A DNA stretch of 64,000 nt from Salinisphaeraceae bacterium (GTDB taxonomy: Bacteria; Pseudomonadota; Gammaproteobacteria; Nevskiales; Salinisphaeraceae). This document shows positions 36,980 to 56,856 of the stretch, in pieces. Both the position numbers and the translations under genes were made by a program. The stretch covers positions 1-64,000 of the forward strand of contig NYTH01000052.1 of assembly GCA_002683405.1 (NCBI GenBank). The letters run 5' to 3'. The stretch's first letter is position 1. Every line of letters begins with the position of its first letter. Under the pieces are notes generated by a model. That model saw nothing but the letters and a program-made list of their open reading frames with translations, was not told where the DNA came from and did no database searches.

Positions 36980-37367
36980 TTCATAAATCCCGACAACCGG
37001 TGCGCCTTTATTGAATAACCCATATGAGCTATTCAAGGCCGCGTTCCGGACAAGCGGTATAGGGGGGCTCCCCTGGTACATCCGGGCGACTGCCGGAATC
37101 GAGCGGGCCCCGGTTGAGGCCGCGGCCGCTGGCGCGGGTCGGTGGTAGCCCGGGGCCGGTGGCGTGGGTCGGGGCAGCTTGCCCAGTGAATTCAGTGATT
37201 TGAGCGGCCGGGCCGTCGCGCCGCAATGCATCGGTACACACCCTGTCAAAACTGACAGGGTGGTTTCGCGGCCGTCGAGATAGTCCTACGTAATTTCACC
37301 TATAGCGAAAATGTAATATTTGCCGAGCGGCTCTTTTTTCGGTCGCGTAAGCGCGTCGCCGCGCCAA
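36980..37367. other. Intergenic region with a 10-bp hairpin
   Basis: Contains the promoter region of the Cys-rich protein gene and the 3' flank of the receiver-BLUF gene. A perfect inverted repeat (CACCCTGTCA/TGACAGGGTG, 37239-37262, 4-nt loop) is the only distinct structure, followed on the plus strand by GTTTC. AT-rich bases at 37290-37325 lie just past the BLUF gene stop. No gene is seen. Confidence 0.5.
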
Positions 37368-47482: not shown

Positions 47483-48532
47483 TCAAGGGCGCCGGTGCAG
47501 GAAATGCAGAAACCGGGCCTCGGCCTGAAGCAGCTCGCGCGGCTTGTCATCCGGCGTCTCGGGCGGCGGCCACGCGCCGGCTTCAAACGCGTCGATGATG
47601 GCCGGGTGAATATAGTACTTGCGGCAGGTGGCGGGCCGGTTTCGCAAGTGCCGGGCGGTCGCCTTCACCATGGCCACGATCTGCCGCGTGACGGCGCTGG
47701 CGCTGTCGTCGGGCATGCTGTCCGCCAGATGCTCGAAGGCATACACGCTGCCGCGCCAGGTCCGCAGCAGTTTGGCGGACACCCAGTCGGCGTCGCAGAT
47801 CTGCTTGAGGTAGTCGTTGACGTGCTGCGAATCCACGCGGGTGAAGCCGGTGCGTTCGTCGCCCGCGCGGTACTGGAACAGCGCCTGGCCGGGCAGTTCG
47901 TCGCAGCGGGCGAGCACCTGGGCGAGCTTTTGGCTGGCCAGCGCTACCGTGCTGTGGCGGCCGCCCTTGGCGTCGAACTCGAACTGTATGGCGTTGCCCT
48001 GCAGTTCCAGATGGCGCTGCTGAAGGGTGGTGACGCCGTAGCTTTCGTTTTCGCGCGTGTAGCCCCGGTTACCCACCCGCATGCCGGTGAGATCCATCAA
48101 CCGGATCACGGTAGCCAGCATCATTTCCCGGCTGAAATCATCGCGATCGATATCGCGCACCAGCCGGCGACGCAGCCGCGGCAGCAGGTCGCCGAACGCC
48201 TCGAGCCGATCGAACTTGCCGTGATTGCGGTGCGTCTGCCAGACGGGGTGGTAGCGGTACTGCTTGCGGTCACGCGCGTCCCGGCCGGTGGCCTGCAGAT
48301 GGCCGTGGGCAACGGGGGCAATCCAGACGTTGCGATAGGCCGGCGGGAGCGCCAGGGCGTTGATCCGTGCCAGGTCCGCCGGATCATCGACCTTTCGGCC
48401 CTCCGCATCGAGATAGTAGAAGCCCTTGCCGGCGCCCTTGCGGGTAAAACCCGGCTGGGTGTCAGTCAGGTGAATCAGGGCATCCGGCGGCAGGTCGTCA
48501 AAGCCGGGCAGGGGTTTGCGTTTGCGGGCCAT
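47483..48532 (-). CDS. DNA topoisomerase IB (poxvirus-like)
   Basis: A 349-residue type IB topoisomerase. The N-terminal domain has GKGFYYLDAEGRKV and YHPVWQTHRNHGKFDRL. The catalytic domain has IRLMDLTGMRVGNRGY (Arg), DAKGGRHSTVAL (Lys), TWRGSVYAFEHL in place of the usual FRTWxxS-type strand, and the nucleophile Tyr in CRKYYIHPAII. It relaxes supercoils through a 3'-phosphotyrosine. This short enzyme is sporadic in proteobacteria. It sits close to the DUF2945 gene (33 nt) and retropepsin gene; a common transcript is plausible. Confidence 0.93.
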   Translation of the reverse strand: MARKRKPLPGFDDLPPDALIHLTDTQPGFTRKGAGKGFYYLDAEGRKVDDPADLARINALALPPAYRNVWIAPVAHGHLQATGRDARDRKQYRYHPVWQTHRNHGKFDRLEAFGDLLPRLRRRLVRDIDRDDFSREMMLATVIRLMDLTGMRVGNRGYTRENESYGVTTLQQRHLELQGNAIQFEFDAKGGRHSTVALASQKLAQVLARCDELPGQALFQYRAGDERTGFTRVDSQHVNDYLKQICDADWVSAKLLRTWRGSVYAFEHLADSMPDDSASAVTRQIVAMVKATARHLRNRPATCRKYYIHPAIIDAFEAGAWPPPETPDDKPRELLQAEARFLHFLHRRP

Positions 48533-51693: not shown

Positions 51694-51722
51694 GTGACCG
51701 GACGGTTTTGACTGTATACAAT
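51694..51722 (+). promoter_or_regulatory. Promoter of the rSAM-UdgX operon (leaderless)
   Basis: A -35-like GTGACC (51694-51699), a 17-nt spacer and TACAAT (51717-51722) as -10 put the transcription start at about 51729, the A of the ATG. There is no Shine-Dalgarno before that ATG, so the mRNA may be leaderless. Confidence 0.55.
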
Positions 51723-51727
51723 TACAG
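51712..51727 (+). promoter_or_regulatory. LexA (SOS) box
   Basis: CTGTATACAATTACAG fits the gammaproteobacterial LexA consensus CTGT-N8-ACAG exactly. It overlaps the -10 element and ends 1 nt before the start codon of the radical-SAM gene, an ideal place for repression. Confidence 0.75.
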
Positions 51728-51728
51728 C

Positions 51729-53000
51729 ATGGAGATTCTGCGCAAGCTCGAGATACTGGCGGACGCCGCCAAATACGATGCGTCCTGCGCGTCAAGCGGC
51801 AGTCAGCGACGCAATTCGCTGTCCGGCAAGGGGATCGGCTCCACGGAAGGGTCGGGCATCTGCCACGCCTATGCGCCGGATGGCCGCTGCATTTCGCTGC
51901 TCAAGATTCTGCTGACCAATTTCTGCATTTACGAATGCAGCTATTGCGTGAACCGCAACTCCTCGCCGGTGCGGCGAGCCCGGTTTTCCGTGGCCGAAGT
52001 GGTCCGGCTGACGCTGGATTTCTACAAACGCAACTACATCGAGGGGTTGTTCCTCAGCTCCGGGGTGATCCGCAATCCGGACTACACGATGGAGCAGCTG
52101 GTGGCGGTGGCGCGCGAGTTGCGGCTTACGCACGACTTTCGCGGTTACATCCATCTGAAGACCATTCCCGATGCCGACGGGACGCTGCTGGCCGATGCGG
52201 GCCGCTTTGCGGATCGTCTGAGCATCAATGTCGAGCTGCCCACGCAGGTGGCGCTGGATAGCCTGGCGCCCGAGAAGGATCACCGCACCATCAAGCTGTC
52301 CATGGCCCGCATACGCCAGCGCCAGGATGAGCACAAGGCGGAACGGGCCGAGGCCCGGCGCATCAGCAACGTCCGCCGCGGCAAGCCGCCCGTGGCCCGG
52401 TTCGCGCCTGCGGGGCAATCCACGCAAATGATCGTGGGCGCCGAGCCGTCCACCGATGCCCAGATTCTGGACACGTCGGCCCACCTGTATTCGGCCTACC
52501 GGCTCAAGCGGGTCTACTTCTCGGCGTTCAGCCCCATCCCCGATGCCTCCAGCCGGCTGCCGGTCCAGCGCGCACCGCTGATGCGTGAGCATCGCCTCTA
52601 CCAGTCCGACTGGCTCATGCGCTTTTACGGTTACCGCCACGATGAGATCACCACCGGTCCGGACGACGTGGCCAGCGACGGCATGCTCGATCTGGATGTC
52701 GACCCCAAACTGGCCTGGGCCCTGCGCAATCGGGCCTATTTTCCGGTGGATCTGAATCGTGACGAGCGGGAGCGGCTACTGCGCGTCCCGGGGCTCGGAG
52801 TGAAATCGGTGAACAAGCTGCTGCGCATGCGCCGCTGGCAGACCGTCCGCCTTGAAGACCTGGTGGCCCTGCGTGCGGGCGTGCGCAAGGCCATGCCGTT
52901 TGTGGTCTGCGCCAACCATCATCCCGGCCTGGCCGAACTGCCCAGCGACCGCTTGCGAGCACGATTCGCGCCGCCGGCCCGGCAGCTTTCCCTGCTGTGA
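51729..53000 (+). CDS. Putative DNA modification/repair radical SAM protein (UDG-linked)
   Basis: A 423-residue radical SAM protein. The N-terminus reads ILADAAKYDASCASSGS and ICHAYAPDGRCISLLKILL. The cluster motif is CIYECSYC (CxxxCxxC), followed by RNYIEGLFLSSGV. A C-terminal helix-hairpin-helix (LLRVPGLGVKSVNKLLRMR) suggests DNA binding. This is the family known to be encoded beside UdgX-like uracil-DNA-glycosylase proteins; its reaction is not established. The ATG at 51729 matches the family start. It overlaps the next gene by 4 bp (GTGA). A LexA box sits immediately upstream, so DNA damage probably induces it. Confidence 0.92.
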   Translation: MEILRKLEILADAAKYDASCASSGSQRRNSLSGKGIGSTEGSGICHAYAPDGRCISLLKILLTNFCIYECSYCVNRNSSPVRRARFSVAEVVRLTLDFYKRNYIEGLFLSSGVIRNPDYTMEQLVAVARELRLTHDFRGYIHLKTIPDADGTLLADAGRFADRLSINVELPTQVALDSLAPEKDHRTIKLSMARIRQRQDEHKAERAEARRISNVRRGKPPVARFAPAGQSTQMIVGAEPSTDAQILDTSAHLYSAYRLKRVYFSAFSPIPDASSRLPVQRAPLMREHRLYQSDWLMRFYGYRHDEITTGPDDVASDGMLDLDVDPKLAWALRNRAYFPVDLNRDERERLLRVPGLGVKSVNKLLRMRRWQTVRLEDLVALRAGVRKAMPFVVCANHHPGLAELPSDRLRARFAPPARQLSLL

Positions 53001-54463
53001 CGCAGGCGTCGCTGTTTGGTCCGGCCCAGGCGGGCAAGGGGCAGCAGGTCTGCCGGTTCCGGCCCGGCTTCGAGGCCTGGCAGCCGGCCGCACGCCGACT
53101 GCTCGCGCAGGGCATCGCGCCGCAGGACGTGTGGTGGCAGCCGGATTCGCAGGCGCCTGTCGATGACGATGCGCCCGCGCCGCCCGCGCCGCGTGTGCCG
53201 CGCGTGTTCCTGGATATGGCCCGGGCGGCCAGCTGCCACAGCCAGCCGGATCGCTGGGCGCTGCTGTACTCGTTGCTGTGGCGCCTGACCCACGGCGAGC
53301 GGCATCTGATGCAGCTGGGCGGCGATGCGCAGATCGTCCGGTTGACTGCCTATGTCAAGGCGGTGCGCCGCGATGTGCACAAGATGAAAGCTTTCGTGCG
53401 CTTTCGGGCGGTGACCGAGAACGATGGCCAGACCCGCTACGTGGCCTGGTTCGAGCCGGCGCACTTCATCGTCGAGTATGCCGCCGGTTTTTTTAGCCGC
53501 CGCTTTTCGAACATGCGCTGGTCCATCCTGACGCCGCTGGGTTGTGCCCACTGGGAAGGCGCCGACGCCGGCGGCCTGTGGTTTTCGGCCCCCGTGGATC
53601 GCGGCGCCGCGCCCGATGGCGACGCGCTCGAGGACGCCTGGCAGGTCTACTACCGCAGTATCTTCAATCCGGCCCGGGTCAAGGTGCGCGCCATGCAGTC
53701 GGAAATGCCCCGCAAGTACTGGAAGAATCTGCCCGAGGCGCGCCTGATTCCGCAGCTTCTGCGCGAGGCGGATCGCCGCGTGTCGACCATGCAGGCGCGG
53801 CCGGCGAGCGAGGAGCGGCTGCACTGCGGGCCCCGGCCTGATTCGCCTGGCGAAACACTCGCGCGGGCCACCGCATCGGCCGGCGATGCGTTGTCGGCGC
53901 TCGCGCTGCGGGCGCAGGCCTGCCGTGGCTGCCCGCTCTGGGAGCCGGCAACGCAGACCGTCTTCGGAGAAGGCCCGGCCCGGGCGCGCATCATGCTGGT
54001 GGGCGAACAGCCGGGGGATCAGGAGGACCTGGCGGGGCGGCCTTTCGTGGGGCCGGCCGGCGAACTGCTGGACCGGGCGCTGGCGGCGGCCGGGCTGGAT
54101 CGTGGCCAGCTGTACGTGACCAACGCCGTCAAGCACTTCAAGTTCGAGCCGCGCGGCAAGCGGCGTATTCACGCCAAGCCGAGCGCGCGGGATATTGCGG
54201 CCTGCCGGCCGTGGGTGGAGGCAGAGCTGCGGGCCGTCGATCCGGCGATCGTCGTCTGCCTGGGCCTGAGCGCCGGTCTGGCGATGCTTGATCGGCCGCT
54301 GACGCTCAACCGCTCGCGGGGTCAGTGGATCGAGCAGGATGCGCGGCAATATCTTCTGACGGCGCATCCCGCCTATCTGCTGCGGCTGCCGGATCGTCGC
54401 CGTCGGCAGGTCGAATACGACCGCTTCGTCAGCGAACTGGCGCTGGCCGCGCAGGCGGCCTGA
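52997..54463 (+). CDS. UdgX-family uracil-DNA binding protein fused to DUF4130 domain
   Basis: A 488-residue fusion. Residues about 65-290 match the DUF4130 domain linked to radical-SAM partners (FLDMARAASCHSQPDRWALL; VRRDVHKMKAFVRFR; FNPARVKVRAMQSEMPRKYW). Residues about 310-485 are family-4/5-like uracil-DNA glycosylase of the UdgX type: CRGCPLWE, GEQPGDQEDLAGRPFVGPAG and the loop GKRRIHAKPS, whose His becomes covalently linked to abasic DNA in characterised UdgX. An additional pair of Cys residues supports an iron-sulfur cluster. The start is GTG at 52997, overlapping the radical-SAM stop. Together they form a two-gene repair module. Confidence 0.92.
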   Translation: MTQASLFGPAQAGKGQQVCRFRPGFEAWQPAARRLLAQGIAPQDVWWQPDSQAPVDDDAPAPPAPRVPRVFLDMARAASCHSQPDRWALLYSLLWRLTHGERHLMQLGGDAQIVRLTAYVKAVRRDVHKMKAFVRFRAVTENDGQTRYVAWFEPAHFIVEYAAGFFSRRFSNMRWSILTPLGCAHWEGADAGGLWFSAPVDRGAAPDGDALEDAWQVYYRSIFNPARVKVRAMQSEMPRKYWKNLPEARLIPQLLREADRRVSTMQARPASEERLHCGPRPDSPGETLARATASAGDALSALALRAQACRGCPLWEPATQTVFGEGPARARIMLVGEQPGDQEDLAGRPFVGPAGELLDRALAAAGLDRGQLYVTNAVKHFKFEPRGKRRIHAKPSARDIAACRPWVEAELRAVDPAIVVCLGLSAGLAMLDRPLTLNRSRGQWIEQDARQYLLTAHPAYLLRLPDRRRRQVEYDRFVSELALAAQAA

Positions 54464-54509: not shown

Positions 54510-55064
54510 ATGAACGATGATCCGGACGAGCTGAGCCGGCTGCGCGAGAGCTGGCTGTATCGCGGGCAGCGCCGGCCCGACTTTGCCACGCCGCCCGGTC
54601 CGGGCCAGGAATCGGTCTGGGATTATCCGCGGCCGCCCGTTCTTCAGCCGGATACCCGCCGCGTCACGATTCATCTGGGCGATATCTGCGTGGCTGATAC
54701 GACGGGCGCGATGCGATTGCTGGAAACCGCCGGGGCGCCCTGCTTCTATCTGCCGCCCGGTGACGTGCAGCCTGACTGCCTGCAGCCCGCAGGTGGCAAG
54801 AGCCTGTGCGAGTGGAAGGGGCAGGCGCGCTACTTCGATGTCCTGGCCGGCAACGCCTTCGTGCCCGGCGCGGCCTGGAGCTATCCCGGGGCGCGTGAAC
54901 CTTTCGAGGCCATTGCGGGCTGGTTCGCCTTCTATCCTGCCGATCTGAATTGCCGCGTGGCGGGCGAGCGGGTCCGGCCTCAACCCGGCGGTTTCTACGG
55001 GGGCTGGGTTACCCGCGATGTGGTCGGGCCGTTCAAGGGCGAATCCGGCACGCTCGGCTGGTGA
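54510..55064 (+). CDS. DUF427 domain protein
   Basis: A 184-residue soluble protein with the DUF427 pattern RRVTIHLGDICVADTTGAMR, FYLPPGDVQPDCL, and a second half KSLCEWKGQARYFDV...WSYPGA. The fold is a small beta barrel of undefined function. It lies 46 nt after the udgX gene, but it is not clear that it belongs to the SOS operon; the family is common elsewhere without such context. Confidence 0.85.
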   Translation: MNDDPDELSRLRESWLYRGQRRPDFATPPGPGQESVWDYPRPPVLQPDTRRVTIHLGDICVADTTGAMRLLETAGAPCFYLPPGDVQPDCLQPAGGKSLCEWKGQARYFDVLAGNAFVPGAAWSYPGAREPFEAIAGWFAFYPADLNCRVAGERVRPQPGGFYGGWVTRDVVGPFKGESGTLGW

Positions 55065-55645: not shown

Positions 55646-56278
55646 GTGAAATTGTATGACTGGTTGATCGCGCCCAACCCGCGGCGGGTCCGGATGTTTC
55701 TGGCCGAAAAGGGTATCGAGGTGGAGATGGAACAGGCCGCGGGCCCCCGCGACATGGACCTGGCGACCTGGTTTCTGGAGCTGGACCCGCGGCGCCGGGT
55801 ACCGCTGCTCGTGCTGGACGACGGCACCCATGTGGGCGAGGCCATGGCGATCTGCCGCTACTTCGATGCACAGCAGCCCGAGCCGAACCTGTTCGGCCGT
55901 GAACCGCTCGCCGTGGCCCTGATCGAAATGTGGGAGCGGGAGTCGGAGATCAACTGCCTGCAGGCGGGCGGCGAGCACGTCCGCAACAGCCACCCGGCCT
56001 TCAAGGACCGCGCGCTGCCCGGCTACAGCGAGCCCACGCCGCAGATCGCGCAGCTCGCCGAGCGGGGGAAGATGCGCTACTACGAATTCCTGTCGCGGGC
56101 CGAAGCGCAGCTTGAGCGGCACGCGTATCTGGCGGGAGAGCAGTTCAGCGCGGCGGATATCACCGCTTTTTGCGCGGTGGATTTCTGGCAGAAATTCAAG
56201 CTGCCGCTGGGCGAGGAGCACACCCGCCTGAAGGCCTGGCACGAGCGTATCGGGCAGCGGCCCAGCGCGACGGCATGA
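55646..56278 (+). CDS. Glutathione S-transferase family protein
   Basis: A 210-residue two-domain GST. The thioredoxin-like half has LIAPNPRRVRMFLAEKGIE, LDPRRRVPLLVLDDG and the glutathione-site EAMAICRYFD; the helical half contains LAGEQFSAADITAFCAVDFW. The start is GTG at 55646. It is 6 nt downstream of the styrene-oxide-isomerase homologue and overlaps tag by 4 bp (ATGA), placing it in a compact operon. Conjugation of an epoxide or other electrophile is a reasonable guess from that neighbour. Confidence 0.92.
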   Translation: MKLYDWLIAPNPRRVRMFLAEKGIEVEMEQAAGPRDMDLATWFLELDPRRRVPLLVLDDGTHVGEAMAICRYFDAQQPEPNLFGREPLAVALIEMWERESEINCLQAGGEHVRNSHPAFKDRALPGYSEPTPQIAQLAERGKMRYYEFLSRAEAQLERHAYLAGEQFSAADITAFCAVDFWQKFKLPLGEEHTRLKAWHERIGQRPSATA

Positions 56279-56856
56279 GCGAGCCCACACGATGCGGCTG
56301 GTGCGAGGGGGATGCCCTGGACACCGCCTACCACGATACCGAGTGGGGCGTGCCGGTCCGGGATGACCGGACCCTGTTCGAATTCCTGATTCTGGAGGGC
56401 GCTCAGGCCGGGTTGAGCTGGCGCACCATCCTCCACAAGCGGGCCGGCTACCGCGAAGCGTTCGACGGGTTTGATATCGAGCGCGTTGCGGGGTTCAGCG
56501 ATGCCCGGCTCGACAAGCTCAGGACATTCGACGGCATTGTCCGCCACAAAGGCAAGATCGAGTCGGCGCGCGGCAATGCGCGGGCTGCGCTGGATATACA
56601 GACCGAGTTCGGCAGCCTGAGCGCCTATCTGTGGCGCTTTGTTTCCGGCCGGCCGCTGATCAATCATCCTGCCACGCTGGCCGACATTCCCACGCAGACA
56701 GAGCTGTCGCGCCAGATGTCGATCGCCCTGAAAAAGCGCGGCTTCCGGTTTGTCGGCCCGACCATCTGCTATGCCTTCATGCAGGCTACGGGGATGGTCA
56801 TGGATCACCTCACCGGCTGCTTTCGACATGTCCAGCTGATGGAGCCGACGCGATGA
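56275..56856 (+). CDS. tag: 3-methyladenine DNA glycosylase I
   Basis: A 193-residue Tag enzyme: CGWCEGDALDTAYHDTEWG (zinc-binding Cys region and the family start), GAQAGLSWRTILHKR, the Glu-containing FEFLILEG, and a C-terminal FVGPTICYAFMQATGMVMDH with the second zinc-ligand region HLTGCFRH. It removes 3-methyladenine from alkylated DNA. It overlaps both the GST gene upstream and the exported-protein gene downstream by 4 bp, so it is embedded in the operon. Confidence 0.96.
   Translation: MSEPTRCGWCEGDALDTAYHDTEWGVPVRDDRTLFEFLILEGAQAGLSWRTILHKRAGYREAFDGFDIERVAGFSDARLDKLRTFDGIVRHKGKIESARGNARAALDIQTEFGSLSAYLWRFVSGRPLINHPATLADIPTQTELSRQMSIALKKRGFRFVGPTICYAFMQATGMVMDHLTGCFRHVQLMEPTR

Follow-up and report, generated by a model that had tools for sequence, protein, structure and literature searches.

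The two-gene operon and its products

The stretch analysed here, referred to as the window, comprises 64,000 nucleotides (nt) of contig NYTH01000052.1 from a Salinisphaeraceae bacterium, and all coordinates are positions in it, the elements and the gene overlap having been checked by direct reading of the sequence. Its plus strand carries a two-gene operon encoding a radical S-adenosylmethionine (radical-SAM) protein of 423 amino acids (aa) (51729-53000; TIGR03916 and COG4277, which we take to be the same family) and a 488-aa fusion of a DUF4130 domain with UdgX, a uracil-DNA glycosylase (UDG), that begins with GTG (52997-54463). The stop codon of the first gene, TGA at 52998-53000, overlaps the GTG at 52997 by 4 nt in the sequence GTGA. 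Upstream of both genes, a -10 hexamer, TACAAT (51717-51722), lies inside an exact CTGT-N8-ACAG LexA (SOS) box, CTGTATACAATTACAG (51712-51727), which is the predicted operator, and ends 6 nt before the ATG at 51729; a -35-like hexamer, GTGACC, with two mismatches to TTGACA, is positioned 17 nt upstream of the -10 (51694-51699). This ATG, at which homologues also begin, is the probable leaderless start of the radical-SAM gene, and direct reading finds no purine-rich Shine-Dalgarno sequence before it. A preliminary description of the window had reported the exact box overlapping the -10, the missing Shine-Dalgarno sequence and the 4-bp gene overlap, and each of these holds on direct reading.

The radical-SAM protein scores 546.6 bits against TIGR03916, above the membership cut-off of 343.5, and this is the only NCBIfam family that it matched at E 0.001. 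Six of its cysteines are invariant in 126 of 126 alignment rows (two pairs of rows come from the same genomes), namely Cys66, Cys70 and Cys73 of the CX3CX2C radical-SAM cluster motif (51924-51947) and the additional residues Cys20, Cys45 and Cys54 (codon span 51786-51890), and Cys394, the only other cysteine of the window protein, varies. The extra triad suggests ligands of an auxiliary Fe-S cluster; N-terminal cysteines that bind an auxiliary cluster are a feature of lipoyl synthase as well. The predicted structure adopts a radical-SAM fold, with a mean predicted local distance difference test (pLDDT) score of 78.0 and with much of residues 20-54 below 50. The matches listed as closest are those to lipoyl synthase, HydE, MqnE and HydG, which share about the same score (Z ~15), and the list includes radical-SAM enzymes that act on proteins or peptides (LIAS, PFL-AE and SuiB). 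From the lipoyl synthase/HydE/BioB group, which holds its nearest listed folds (Z ~14-16), the window protein differs by low sequence identity (9-16%), by its helix-hairpin-helix (HhH)-like C-terminal half and by its DNA-repair context. The HhH-like region itself, RVPGLGVKSVNKLLRMRR (52782-52832), is a likely site of DNA contact with weak profile similarity to the ComEA-related 2duy (E 0.045), and a weak similarity to RuvA (E 0.03) begins just upstream of this region and runs into it. DUF4130 has been predicted to be mutagenesis-related and associated with SplB-like radical-SAM proteins and UDGs in the excerpted text of an earlier study (PMC3765255, Biol Direct 2013); the profile and fold matches listed for the window protein are instead HydE/HydG, lipoyl synthase and BioB, and spore photoproduct lyase (SPL; SplB, COG1533), which is not among them, is still a possible relative.

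The second gene had been read as a DUF4130-UdgX fusion carrying a KRRIH loop, an identity borne out by its scores against TIGR03915 (191.4 bits; cut-off 112.25) and TIGR03914 (287.9 bits; cut-off 189.95), with a Pfam search returning DUF4130 and UDG domains. The DUF4130 domain occupies 53246-53737 (PF13566, 128.7 bits, residues 84-247) and the UdgX domain 53744-54445 (TIGR03914, residues 250-483), the latter with the motifs GEQPG (54002-54016, residues 336-340) and KRRIH (54158-54172, residues 388-392). In the AlphaFold model of the fusion (mean pLDDT 90.3), the UdgX part aligns with 6ajo at Z 28.9 (root-mean-square deviation 1.8 over 198 aligned residues, 50% identity). It shares KRRIH and GEQPG with Mycobacterium smegmatis UdgX (to which the domain is 50% identical, with Z 28.9) and differs from it in being fused to DUF4130, in belonging to a LexA-box operon and in its motif B, which reads HPAYLLR rather than HPS. 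We aligned 48 fused rows, 47 of them with motif A (L028 is without it); GEQPG (Q53), the loop Arg and the loop His are kept in all 47 domains with motif A, and at the third position of motif B, whose expected form is HPS(S/A)(L/V)(L/V)R, 41 of the 47 have S and 6 have A. The DUF4130 alignment, from which L014 and L012 were dropped for wrong frames and in which L038 was taken in a corrected frame, has H128, R135, F166, R169, W175, R227, W242 and E247 among its invariant residues. The fold of DUF4130 was barely probed by the structure search of the fusion model, in which UDG chains fill the matches listed; phmmer with the DUF4130 part returned nothing better than E 0.32, a PHROGs search gave one weak match (E 0.0062) and a PADLOC search none. 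As a separate observation, six of the 47 UdgX domains (L041, L042, L045, L136, L181 and L198) lost three cysteines together, at positions 309, 312 and 403 in window numbering, while retaining GEQPG, the loop His and the ends of motif B. We take these cysteines to be Fe-S ligands, and these six domains are apparently without a cluster.

LexA boxes and promoter geometry

On its own the exact box of the window is weak evidence of regulation, because the genome-wide count of CTGT-N8-ACAG (26) matches that of the reversed control pattern (28) and reveals no enrichment. The window contains two exact matches against 0.53 expected, a number of at least two being reached in 11 of 100 shuffles, and a looser 17-mer with two mismatches occurs 236 and 249 times by strand in the genome, near the background given by its controls (214 and 209). 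The box gains significance because it is conserved at the same place in the host family, where all 14 loci with a readable radical-SAM start have it (7 exact, 7 with one mismatch), always ending 1-2 nt before the ATG; the fourteenth of these, L020 (G015), has its gene divided between two contigs. The preliminary description had made LexA control depend on the presence of a lexA gene, and one lexA match is found in the host genome (4.1e-24). Among 17 host-family genomes, the 14 with a match to the lexA DNA-binding domain are the same 14 that have TIGR03916, and G002, G004 and G016 have neither, a co-occurrence count limited by the 81% completeness of G016 and by G002 and G004 belonging to one genus. 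G134, from a different family, has the operon with neither a lexA match nor a box. The placement of the box against the start codon is shared with the regulator, since lexA of nine host-family genomes (loci L001, L116, L117, L119, L120, L122 and L124-L126) has its own LexA-like box 1-3 nt before the start, which is CTGGATATATTTACAG (CTG-N10-CAG) in six and degenerate in three. For recA, an exact box was not found in the host-family loci examined. When 12 of the looser genome matches were inspected, only one gene was judged to have a plausible box, CTGTATTTATATACAC at L081:1501-1532, which lies shortly upstream of it in the host genome; from its protein sequence we assume this gene to be imuA-like, a Pfam search having given no match.

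A broader comparison covered 126 upstream regions, consisting of the window, 16 relatives, 30 phylum-survey loci and 79 named loci, with L134 left out of the promoter counts as a copy of L010. A strict box was searched for within 200 nt and called abutting when it ended no more than 6 nt short of the start codon or reached up to 3 nt into it, and expected counts were obtained by first-order Markov resampling of each upstream region. Strict LexA boxes are present in 102 of the 126 operons against 0.86 expected, and in 63 they abut the start codon against 0.015 expected (L043 and L152, identical upstream, are both counted; without the copy, 101 of 125 loci have a box and 62 are abutting). The commonest distances between box and start are 2 nt (34 loci), 1 nt (10) and 14 nt (10). 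The motif itself varies by clade, being CTGT-N8-ACAG in Salinisphaera relatives, Variovorax and Comamonas and GAAC-N7-GAAC in alphaproteobacteria. In Variovorax, Comamonas and one Burkholderiales locus the last base of the box is the first base of the GTG start, and in L004 the ATG falls within an exact box, downstream of a -10 reading TACACT.

When the 51 loci whose box lies 0-3 nt from the start codon are aligned on that codon, conserved bases stand out, with T at 0.63 in position -35, G at 0.61 in -33, T at 0.71 in -12 and A at 0.82 in -11. In 23 of these 51 loci a TTGACA-like hexamer with at most two mismatches stands exactly at position -35 relative to the start codon, whereas the mean for the remaining positions between -60 and -18 is 1.55 loci; because -35 lies outside the box, this peak does not simply reflect the LexA motif. 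A -10 of the form TAnnnT at -13 to -11 is found in 22/63 abutting loci, compared with 0/29 recA genes and 7/556 mechanical open reading frames (ORFs), and Shine-Dalgarno-like 4-mers occur in 6/63, 20/29 and 138/556 of the same sets, respectively. In the recA control, for which 29 genomes were used after a thirtieth, cut locus (L215) was dropped, 13 have a box, at 44-131 nt from the start, and in none does it abut. The preliminary description had suggested a survey of homologous operons for LexA boxes, and its proposals of LexA control and of a leaderless transcript are both supported by this comparison of upstream sequences, the first by the 102 boxes and the second by the 63 abutting boxes and the -35 hexamers; leaderless SOS expression is, on this footing, well supported.

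The core unit, its proposed function and rival explanations

In a survey of 200 genomes from the phylum, matches were found in 37 for TIGR03916 and in 32 for TIGR03915, with 31 of each over the cut-off in an identical set of 31 genomes. Caulobacter vibrioides is one of the control genomes with matches to TIGR03916, TIGR03915 and TIGR03914 alike. TIGR03914 lies directly behind TIGR03915 in 22 of these (in G215 its second half only), a contig edge falls there in one (G254), and UdgX is not beside the pair in eight (G083, G106, G134, G142, G159, G243, G250 and G256). A LexA box of the type proper to the clade is present at seven of the eight pairs that are without UdgX (L023, L025, L037, L038, L044, L048 and L049), and the eighth is that of G134, the genome without a lexA match. 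DUF4130 is likewise seen in 77 of the 80 named loci, the others (L146, L172 and L205) being cut by contig ends and not counted, and UdgX follows in 67 of the 77, is missing in nine and is cut by a contig end in one. Because the pairing of radical-SAM protein and DUF4130 is constant (31/31) while UdgX adjoins only part of the pairs, this comparison indicates that the two form the core unit and that UdgX is an optional add-on whose cross-linking residues are intact. The TIGRFAM notes reportedly describe the families as paired and only partly fused to a UDG. The two-enzyme uracil pathway that the preliminary description had proposed finds partial support, UdgX being in the operon with intact residues and lying beside only 22-23 of the 31 pairs.

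Our favored reading, at a probability of about 0.7, is a repair operon that is SOS-induced from a leaderless promoter and combines a radical-SAM/DUF4130 core with an optional UdgX. A LexA dimer on 51712-51727 would cover the -10 and abut the start codon, excluding RNA polymerase, and RecA-stimulated cleavage of LexA upon damage would free the promoter. The conserved promoter geometry suggests that the transcript begins at or within 1-2 bases of the ATG at 51729. The radical-SAM protein would be translated without a Shine-Dalgarno sequence, with the DUF4130-UdgX protein probably following through coupling at the GTGA overlap. The radical-SAM enzyme, with its HhH-like region and predicted auxiliary cluster, and DUF4130 may then act together on damaged DNA, the target probably being a pyrimidine lesion at stalled forks; where present, the UdgX module, if it behaves as the M. 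smegmatis protein does, would excise uracil or a uracil-like base and hold the abasic site via the His of KRRIH. As to the reaction of the radical-SAM enzyme, our guess is radical chemistry on a DNA base rather than an SPL-type reversal of a dimer.

Several observations weigh against this reading, and most bear on whether the promoter is leaderless. In 39 of the 126 operons the nearest strict box lies elsewhere, 9-93 nt upstream, including six loci (Bradyrhizobium among them) in which it is 81-82 nt away and the transcripts probably carry a leader, and a further 24 show no strict box in the scanned region. A one-mismatch form is present in 11 of the latter (seven being host-family loci), and L004 has its exact box over the start, where the strict scan cut it off; the remaining 12, to which three of the four order-level relatives studied belong (L002, L003 and L005), have neither a strict, a one-mismatch nor a start-overlapping box. 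The -10 is recognizable in only 22 of the 63 abutting loci, the lexA promoter of the window genome has a degenerate box only (GTGTATATATTTCCAC), and the counts are not independent, since the 126 loci include many related Alphaproteobacteria. Leaderlessness of the operon would accordingly be common and not universal, because 39 operons have the box elsewhere and 24 are without a strict one. An operon that is SOS-controlled and not leaderless, with its start site further upstream or its first codon at the in-frame TTG at 51708, which would put the radical-SAM start upstream of the LexA box, could owe the position of the box to its overlap with the -10, as LexA boxes often overlap -10 elements, and some of the 39 loci with distant boxes have room for a leader. 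We consider this quite unlikely, as homologues begin at the ATG and not at the position of that TTG, Shine-Dalgarno-like 4-mers are rare in the abutting loci, the -35 hexamer keeps its distance from the start codon while lying outside the box, and the recA boxes of the control stay well clear of the start. That the box arose by chance and has no regulatory role, which the equal genome-wide counts of the motif and its reversal would allow, is very improbable indeed in light of its retention at one place in all readable host-family loci and the takeover by the alpha-type motif in alphaproteobacteria.

Other alternatives concern what the proteins do. The radical-SAM protein could be a maturase that modifies DUF4130, with DUF4130-UdgX as the DNA-acting product; a one-to-one pairing (31/31 each way) is what an enzyme and its protein substrate should show, and LIAS, PFL-AE and SuiB are among its fold matches, but the radical-SAM protein has an HhH-like region of its own, albeit a weak one, and DUF4130 has numerous invariant residues, often charged ones, in the manner of an enzyme or a nucleic-acid binder, which together make this explanation doubtful. 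We hold it similarly unlikely that the operon is dedicated to uracil or abasic sites, with UdgX capping uracil sites and the radical-SAM protein resolving them or completing repair. The shared operon, the gene overlap and the intact UdgX residues speak for such a pathway, and SOS co-induction would fit the RecA-dependent resolution proposed for UdgX complexes of M. smegmatis in the portions of PMC10359453 at hand. UdgX is nevertheless missing in 8 of the 31 survey pairs and 9 of the 77 named loci (one more is cut), and seven of the eight survey pairs without it keep their LexA box, leaving the uracil pathway only partly supported; the fact that UdgX is dispensable counts against uracil being the defining substrate.

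SOS control of this gene pair is not new. In the extract of PMC8565304 available, a COG1573-COG4277 operon, described as a putative base-excision system with a UDG, is counted among the members of the SOS network inferred for Bacteroidetes, earlier reports of an SOS-controlled uracil-DNA-glycosylase-based system in Verrucomicrobia and Alphaproteobacteria are mentioned, and the authors suggest that the operon handles ribonucleotide misincorporation by SOS polymerases. The window operon is of the same SOS-controlled, two-gene kind; that extract mentions neither a leaderless geometry nor the extra triad of cysteines, nor that UdgX is optional. Partial texts of the UdgX literature describe covalent capture of the abasic site through H109, a precise physiological role that is largely unknown and proposed resolution of M. 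smegmatis UdgX-DNA complexes by RecA-dependent pathways or proteases (PMC10359453), as well as a scattered bacterial distribution (PMC10776899). Our literature searches found no reaction assigned to the radical-SAM/DUF4130 pair and no match for UdgX together with radical SAM, and the titles and abstract openings listed on leaderless SOS genes contained no conserved leaderless promoter for this operon.

The pair recurs across the phylum, mostly under LexA-type boxes, and the constancy of DUF4130 against the optional UdgX redirects the search for a substrate, with the six invariant cysteines as targets for mutants. The fused operator, -10 and start codon in many genera offer a clean system in which to ask why a 5' leader is missing from some SOS genes. 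It is possible, and we put it forward only tentatively, that leaderlessness itself has been selected, the operator having been rebuilt inside the promoter across gamma-, beta- and alphaproteobacteria with unrelated LexA motifs in a way that keeps the transcription start on the start codon, and that the enzyme represents a novel type of radical-SAM protein that acts on DNA, has an auxiliary Fe-S cluster and keeps DUF4130 as its constant partner. If true, this would allow production of the repair enzyme during damage through leaderless (70S-type) initiation.

Variant loci and neighbouring genes

Some host-family operons depart from the layout of the window. Seven genomes (L244-L246 and L248-L251) have ~1.6 kb between the radical-SAM and DUF4130-UdgX genes, and the insert of L245 contains a DUF3307 protein and a 216-aa gene that we presume to be SatD-like, its product having no family match. 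In L247 (G013) the radical-SAM match stops at residue 244 and runs into UdgX, with the rest of the protein and DUF4130 missing, which is either a natural deletion or an assembly fault.

In four Xanthomonadaceae loci (L035, L139, L164 and L191), which are without a LexA box of the type seen elsewhere, the palindrome GTCTCA-N5-TGAGAC lies 22 nt before the radical-SAM start codon. It occurs three times in G154, the genome of L035, where ~0.29 would be expected for 12 fixed bases in 4.8 Mb and the reversed control gives 0. The three copies precede uvrA, the radical-SAM operon and a TIGR03817-like helicase gene (loci L254 and L256 were noted here), the uvrA and helicase neighbours having been identified from partial proteins. 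The palindrome may be a candidate non-LexA operator of a different damage regulon.

Within the window, the second exact LexA box (37243-37258) touches the 5' end of a 231-aa ORF on the minus strand. The operon has as neighbours a gene for a DUF427 protein (54510-55064) and one for DNA-3-methyladenine glycosylase I (56170-56856), and a bacterial topoisomerase IB gene lies nearby on the minus strand (47483-48532).

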